64,000 nt of DNA from Opitutus sp. ER46. Its GTDB lineage: Bacteria; Verrucomicrobiota; Verrucomicrobiia; Opitutales; Opitutaceae. The stretch's first letter is position 1, and the number at the start of each line of letters is the position of its first letter. Under the pieces are notes generated by a model, which did not search any database, had not been told where the DNA came from, and saw only the letters and a program-made list of their open reading frames with translations. Shown in pieces: positions 36,425 through 36,916 of this stretch. Made by a program: the position numbers and the translations under genes. The stretch is from NCBI RefSeq assembly GCF_003054705.1, contig NZ_QAYX01000023.1, positions 434,001-498,000 of the forward strand, read 5' to 3'.

Positions 36425-36454
36425 GTGAGAGTGAAAGTGAGAGTGAGAGTGGGA
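36425..36454. repeat. Left hexamer array flanking the four-helix-bundle gene
   Basis: Five consecutive hexamers GTGAGA, GTGAAA, GTGAGA, GTGAGA and GTGGGA are seen on the plus strand. The array runs up to within nine bases of the hddA start. It is inverted with respect to the array at 36881-36916 on the far side of the gene. Confidence 0.8.
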
Positions 36455-36488
36455 CGGAGCCCGAAAGTGAAAATGGGGCCGGGGAGAG

Positions 36489-36860
36489 TTACGGCGAGGG
36501 CTGGCTTCGCAGCGTGCTGATAGACTTGGTCAGGATCGCGATGATCTCACGGCAGAGGACGACGCGGGCATCGACGGTTTCCGCGGGGAGCCAATGTTTC
36601 AACCGCTCATAGCGGCCGGCGGTTTCTTGGGCCGAACCTCGGGCAATGACAAGGAAGTGGGCGTACTCCTTGGGACTGCCGCGGCCATAGCCTTCCTCAA
36701 TGTTCGCCGCGATGGAGTCGGCGCTGGCCAACTGCTGGCCAATGAGCCGGGCGAGCGCTGCGGACTTCGTGAGGGGCATCAAGTCGGCAGCCGTGAGGTC
36801 AAACAGCTCCAGCGCCTTCCGGTAAGCACCAAATGACGAGAGGTGTGAGTCGGCTGCCAT
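36489..36860 (-). CDS. Four-helix-bundle protein (S23 / 23S rRNA intervening-sequence family)
   Basis: The 123-residue all-helical protein starts at ATG 36860 (MAADSHLSSFGAYRKALELF). Family features are AYRKALELF at the start of helix 1, LIGQQLASADSIAANIEEGY with GRGSPKEYAHFL, and ARGSAQETAGRYERL. This is the four-helix-bundle group (TIGR02436-like) known from 23S rRNA intervening sequences and, as Avd, from diversity-generating retroelements. No reverse transcriptase or variable repeat is present here. The gene lies between inverted arrays of GTGAGA/GTGAAA hexamers, in the middle of the glycan locus, and has no functional link to its neighbours. It looks like an inserted cassette. Function unknown. 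Confidence 0.88.
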   Translation of the reverse strand: MAADSHLSSFGAYRKALELFDLTAADLMPLTKSAALARLIGQQLASADSIAANIEEGYGRGSPKEYAHFLVIARGSAQETAGRYERLKHWLPAETVDARVVLCREIIAILTKSISTLRSQPSP

Positions 36861-36880
36861 CGTCACCTGAACAAGTGGGC

Positions 36881-36916
36881 TTTCACTCTCACTCTCACTT
36901 TCACTTTCACTTTCAC
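36881..36916. repeat. Right hexamer array flanking the four-helix-bundle gene
   Basis: Six hexamers of TTTCAC/TCTCAC type, which on the other strand read GTGAAA/GTGAGA. The array includes the stop codon of the oxidoreductase gene (36913-36915). It is the inverted counterpart of 36425-36454. Confidence 0.8.

Follow-up and report, generated by a model that had tools for sequence, protein, structure and literature searches.

The window is the whole stretch of DNA that was analyzed, 64,000 nucleotides from Opitutus sp. ER46, and the genome that contains it, with its GTGARA-armed S23 gene, is designated G000 in the comparisons. It harbors a small S23-type gene that lies between two opposed arrays of the hexamer GTGARA, and this unit is located between a gene encoding an oxidoreductase and a gene encoding an HddA-like kinase. 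The features of the locus, in the direction of transcription, are as follows.

36913-38001, minus strand: upstream host gene, Gfo/Idh/MocA oxidoreductase; its stop codon (TGA, 36913-36915) lies within the upstream arm
36879-36920, minus strand: upstream arm, (GTGARA)n reading into the S23 gene, with a purine-rich coding strand
36489-36860, minus strand: S23-type four-helix-bundle gene (PF05635 / TIGR02436), putative cassette cargo, 123 aa; ATG at 36860, stop codon ending at 36489
36422-36476, plus strand: downstream arm, inverted (GTGARA)n, with a core at 36422-36455 and degenerate units to about 36476
35433-36416, minus strand: downstream host gene, HddA-like GHMP kinase (hddA, profile match), starting at 36416, about 9 nt from the downstream arm

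The core of the left array reads AAAGTGAGAGTGAAAGTGAGAGTGAGAGTG..., and the reverse complement of the right array, which has the opposite orientation, reads GTGAAAGTGAAAGTGAAAGTGAGAGTGAGAGTGAAAG. The initial annotation had described a small S23-type gene between opposed GTGARA hexamer arrays, and this was borne out by the coordinates, by profile matches, and by an arm-versus-arm alignment score of 55 (control maximum 28). The exact fit that it had claimed between hddA and the oxidoreductase gene, with one array about 9 bases from a start codon and the other supplying a TGA, also held. The GTGARA motif was found beyond this cassette as well, in about 52 separate arrays genome-wide, for which a reversed-sequence control is uninformative because it yields nearly the same array.

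The 123-aa protein belongs to the PF05635 / TIGR02436 family according to both profile scores and fold. It matched PF05635 with an E value of 3.3e-14 (53.4 bits, cut-off 33.8) and TIGR02436 with an E value of 2.1e-17 (63.3 bits, cut-off 24), and its AlphaFold model is a four-helix bundle (pLDDT 95). The best PDB matches of the model were 2gsc (XCC0516; TM 0.81) and 2rld (BT_0352), followed by the Avd subunits of a DGR ribonucleoprotein (8ub7, 4dwl). XCC0516 is reported to be a pentamer of four-helix bundles in PMC4990558 and PMC3936711, both of which cite Lin et al. (2006) for this. The profile search found a single PF05635 ORF between the arms and no recombinase of the DDE, HUH, serine, or tyrosine type. 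No relatives of the protein were found in the viral contigs searched.

The PF05635 search identified seven clear S23 genes in the window genome, all of which lie between inverted arrays. Each has its own degenerate word, namely TAGGCGA/TAAGC, GTAAGG, AGAAGCCAGAGGCC, CTCTTAC, GAATGCA, GTGARA, and AAAGGGCTG. Arms were scored at further S23 genes by taking 300 bases on each side and aligning the upstream segment locally with the reverse complement of the downstream one, at a threshold of at least 28; flanks were taken from the end of the profile match, as starting at the stop codon misses arms where the S23 frame crosses the downstream arm. The arrays that the initial annotation had noted at one gene proved to be nearly always present at similar genes elsewhere. 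Within the same order, arms were detected at 66/77 S23 loci, compared with 2.2% of neighboring control segments, and a score of at least 30 was reached at 62/77 loci and at 0/270 controls. Among named genomes from about 15 phyla, arms were detected at 61/79 loci (77%; controls, 2.3%), and the remaining 18/79 S23 genes of this broad set had no detectable arms. All 30 S23 loci examined in the family that contains Luteimonas were armed (30/30; controls, 2.9%). No rRNA was found by Rfam near 12 other S23 loci. In the Luteimonas/Dokdonella group (L204, L325-L348), S23 cassettes are often situated between accB and accC. On a plasmid of Pseudanabaena galeata (L283, 1285-1966), an S23 gene between cas6 and cas4 has heptamer arms of the form GGCTTTTAGCGATTAGC. 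The cas loci that are described as holding S23 (PMC3936711) probably represent no more than a further site of insertion, because this cas6-cas4 copy also has heptamer arms.

S23 genes in same-order loci are closely bracketed by their arms, with a median distance of 12 nt before the start codon and 6 nt after the stop codon. The repeat period over 120 elements was 7 in 103, 8 in 13, 6 in two, and 9 in two; therefore, the hexamer of the window is a rare form. Arms in the order have a median of 4.6-4.7 units, and those with 4-5 units make up 43/66 on the upstream side and 39/66 on the downstream side. Elements of the Luteimonas family had a period of 7 in 28/28 cases and a median of 4.3 units, and 77% of their arms had 4-5 units. 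The coding strand of the upstream arm was purine-rich in about 91%. Arms of 4-5 units would suit a pentameric ring in which each subunit takes up about one heptamer.

The arm motif follows the protein rather than the site. Pairwise S23 identity and arm-motif similarity were strongly correlated (Mantel r 0.78; maximum of 2000 permutations, 0.17): proteins that are less than 50% identical have unrelated arm motifs, and those that are more than 70% identical mostly have a common motif. The lineage with GTAGCGA arms occurs at the gyrB-gyrA junction of many genera, and also between gatA and gatB and between pheS and pheT; identity between these proteins reaches 91%, without any flanking genes in common. 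The GTGARA lineage lies between the oxidoreductase gene and hddA in G000, but between an epimerase gene and an SDR gene in G006 and G008. The window protein is most closely related to the S23 proteins of G006 and G008 (73% identical), which have GTGAGA/GTGAAA arms, and the hddA junctions of these two genomes contain no S23. The interval between the epimerase and SDR genes, which holds the cassette in G006 and G008, is occupied in the window by a gene for a membrane protein (about 1.7 kb), and a GGGAGTG-type array at 42374-42408 lies just upstream of the SDR start.

The initial annotation had proposed an inspection of the same locus in relatives, in which the hddA orthologs are 85-93% identical. 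S23 was present between the oxidoreductase gene and hddA in seven sampled genomes (G000, G003, G012, G013, G019, G023, and G026) and absent from the 15 other junctions that were read, many of which keep solo degenerate arrays. At the other occupied hddA sites, the S23 protein is 60-66% identical to that of the window, and its arms resemble GGGARTGA or GGGAGAGGGAAAGG instead of GTGARA. The arms thus accompany the protein lineage, irrespective of the site: G006 and G008 keep their arms at another junction, and the S23 genes at the hddA site differ. The final residues of the oxidoreductases at occupied sites are encoded by the arm, at positions that differ between species.

The gyrB-gyrA junction has variable contents, including the GTAGCGA-type S23 cassette, a GxxExxY gene with GCGCGAAGACGCAAAGG arms, inverted arrays that have several motifs but no gene, and a nearly bare stretch of 57 bases. 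The S23 copies at this junction look vertically inherited. In G003 (L120), the junction contains a 135-aa ORF without a Pfam match, and C/T-rich arrays on its downstream side only. GxxExxY genes (PF13366, PD-(D/E)XK superfamily) lie in inverted-array cassettes at gyrB-gyrA (L114, L118, L123, L125, and L131) and at L173-L202, and inverted arms were detected at 27/30 GxxExxY genes versus 0/103 controls. The same unit was thus found at different sites, with relatives' sites that lack S23, as in mobile cassettes generally. No target-site duplication was evident at gyrB-gyrA or hddA, where the species pairs compared are too diverged.

Inverted arrays also occur without a gene. Within the window, they form one nested structure.

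8609-8802, no strand assigned: two nested gene-less inverted arrays, outer pair 8609-8638 / 8772-8802, inner pair 8648-8677 / 8735-8761

The outer pair is of the GGCTGAA type and best matches the arms of an S23 gene of the same genome (L008), and the inner pair is of the GTCAGAY type; the arrangement resembles the insertion of one gene-less element into another. Over 400 kb of G000 and in the window, inverted array pairs either enclose S23 or have a gap that is too short for a comparable gene. The best match of 11/17 gene-less pairs was to S23 arms of their own genome (label-permutation mean 1.4; 0/2000 permutations reached 11), a result that is mostly driven by G000, which contributed nine of the 11, with two from G008. 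The summed score of gene-less arrays against own-genome arms was 322, compared with 113 +/- 18.5 for random arms. Some G000 loci, such as L035 and L038, are dense intergenic mixtures of the words GGGATTGA, GAGAAC, and TCTGACA, and some words of this kind have no matching S23 gene in G000.

Independent support comes from the GGGAATC repeats published for Xanthomonas. These heptamers, which number 186 and 183 per genome, typically have four units and form 70-75 convergent pairs, were described as putative quadruplex repeats without a link to a mobile element or gene (PMC4692102). The S23 genes of Luteimonas and its relatives have GGGAATC/GGGATTC/GTGAATC arms. A Luteimonas genome with such an S23 gene contained 190 two-unit GGGAATC matches, many of them in convergent pairs 50-130 bases apart, and among six other S23-bearing genomes only Dokdonella, a close relative, had more than one. 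Across 149 genomes of the family, three-unit GGGAATC arrays were present in 31/38 genomes with an XCC0516-type S23 and in 16/111 without (Fisher p 7e-14, a statistic that ignores phylogeny). Of the 47 genomes of this family that have GGGAATC arrays, 10 lacked an S23 match.

These comparisons suggest that the window locus probably belongs to a widespread class of small mobile, or selfish, cassettes that carry one gene and have gene-less derivatives. In this best-supported reading, the class is defined by its inverted tandem-repeat arms, and its cargo would come from two or more protein families, S23 among them. The initial annotation had read the locus as a mobile cassette, and this reading is supported by the comparative sites, the match between motif and lineage, and the general presence of arms around S23. 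Such a cassette would consist of one gene, here S23 (IVP), inside inverted arms of about 30 nt with 4-5 degenerate units, which are usually heptamers and here hexamers. Arm, gene, and arm would be moved and inherited together and would land in the gap of a few bases that separates the stop codon of one gene from the start codon of the next, and inverted arrays that share the motif but lack the gene would be non-autonomous derivatives. The S23 protein, whose solved homolog XCC0516 is a pentameric ring and which is structurally related to Avd of DGRs, may bind the arms, plausibly with about one repeat unit per subunit, in the form of a hairpin of single-stranded RNA or DNA. Because the cassette has no recognizable recombinase, strand transfer might be supplied in trans by a host enzyme. 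Points against the mobile reading are the lack of a recombinase in the cassette and of an evident target-site duplication, the vertically inherited look of the gyrB-gyrA copies, the 18/79 S23 genes without detectable arms, the 10/47 Luteimonas-family genomes with arrays but no S23 match, and the mismatch between GTGARA cassettes and exact four-unit arrays in G006, G008, G017, and G019.

An explanation that we regard as unlikely is that the arms are simple-sequence repeats born by slippage, at which S23 genes gather, or that cassettes spread by homologous recombination between existing arrays. Dispersed arrays are common in G000 and are also found without S23, single arrays are equally frequent in the S23-less genome G030 (39 per 100 kb), and recombination between arrays would likewise carry arm and gene jointly. 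However, about 80% of S23 genes have paired inverted arms that are sized at 4-5 units, unlike the products of free slippage, and distinct protein lineages hold distinct motifs across genera. Furthermore, 200 kb of G030 yielded zero inverted array pairs with a first detector and one with a second, and the GTGARA cassette of G006 and G008 is not accompanied by other arrays of four exact units that could have served as recombination partners. G017 and G019 contain exact four-unit GTGARA arrays without an identified GTGARA S23, and GTGARA array counts over 57 relatives do not cleanly track GTGARA S23. This difference between the two pairs of genomes, together with the arrays found without S23, indicates that the amplification of gene-less arrays does not depend on the resident S23 in a simple way; amplification in trans by the GTGARA S23 itself is not claimed, given how poorly the counts track.

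It is also improbable that the arms alone are the mobile unit, with S23 and GxxExxY as passengers that were captured by an array-specific host machinery and do not act on the arms. Two unrelated protein families do occur in similar cassettes, and gene-less pairs outnumber gene-bearing pairs in the sampled G000 DNA. However, the motif is predicted by the protein lineage, and the arm grammars of the two families differ, with a 7-mer in about 4.5 units for S23 and a period of 9-10 in about three units for GxxExxY. Both observations argue that the protein matters.

Least probable of these explanations, and highly doubtful, is a non-mobile hairpin that processes or insulates RNA, being cleaved by an enzyme such as RNase III under the regulation of S23, and that is retained for operon control: the two arms are predicted to base-pair in the folded transcript (z -3.9 relative to shuffled sequences), S23 ORFs of rRNA intervening sequences sit in stem-loops excised by RNase III (PMC4990558), and several sites lie within conserved operons (gyrBA, gatAB, pheST, and accBC), with the gyrBA copy kept across genera, but any single junction is occupied sporadically, with other cassettes or nothing in its place elsewhere, the same S23 lineage is found in unrelated operons, and the orientation of neighboring genes has no clear bias. 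Because the orientation test was rough, cassettes are not claimed to insert co-directionally as a rule. Phase variation and terminators were also considered but were not adopted as the principal explanation, given that arm motif and protein lineage go together.

Beyond the mobile cassette itself, a wider proposal is put forward tentatively, as possible rather than likely. S23 cassettes may constitute a transposable class of many phyla that has no known recombinase, in which tandem-repeat ends with lineage-specific words would be read by a non-catalytic pentameric ring at about one unit per subunit, gene-less inverted arrays would be non-autonomous members, the cassettes with PD-(D/E)XK-fold GxxExxY genes would form a branch parallel to those with S23, and rRNA intervening sequences would be a specialized offshoot. 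If this is true, the S23-type cassette class would account for many of the orphan heptamer repeats in bacterial genomes. S23 proteins, a common orphan family, have a solved ring structure and no known function, and the link to heptamer repeats offers a testable role for them. Annotation would overlook this putative type of mobile DNA because a transposase is absent and the ends resemble simple repeats. No description of such a cassette class was found in the open-access literature searched; on the basis of that limited search, S23 cassettes look like an undescribed kind of mobile DNA.

Several known systems share some of these properties. The 23S rRNA intervening sequences of Coxiella and Leptospira likewise have an S23 ORF within complementary stem-loop arms, occur sporadically, and have been called a selfish element (PMC4990558), and PF05635 was also reported in rRNA insertions of CPR bacteria (PMC11270868). 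The window cassette has the S23 ORF within complementary arms, but it lies between the protein genes oxidoreductase and hddA, whereas the intervening sequences lie inside rRNA genes. In addition, arms of the window type are short tandem repeats with lineage-specific motifs, and their gene-less relatives are dispersed in the genome. IS elements and MITEs are similar in their inverted ends, occupied and unoccupied sites, and short non-autonomous forms, whereas the S23 cassette has no known recombinase and its ends are degenerate tandem repeats. The Avd accessory protein of DGRs has the same fold and pentameric ring, and its chains are matched by the window model (8ub7, 4dwl), but the S23 cassette itself has neither a reverse transcriptase nor a template/variable repeat. 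REPIN-RAYT systems combine one motif-flanked gene with dispersed non-autonomous inverted doublets (PMC3116915, PMC8266576), and dispersed inverted doublets that share the flanking motif of the gene were found here in the same genome. Unlike RAYT, S23 is not a Y1/HUH transposase, as only PF05635 / TIGR02436-type families match it, and the cassette ends are tandem 6-9-mers rather than single REP palindromes. The GGGAATC repeats of Xanthomonas (PMC4692102) match the S23 arms of Luteimonas and its relatives in motif. Heptamer repeats of bacterial genomes were previously without explanation, and the original Xanthomonas study made no link to a gene or mobile element; the link to S23, which is new here and comes through the arms of the relatives, would account for the Xanthomonas inverted repeats.
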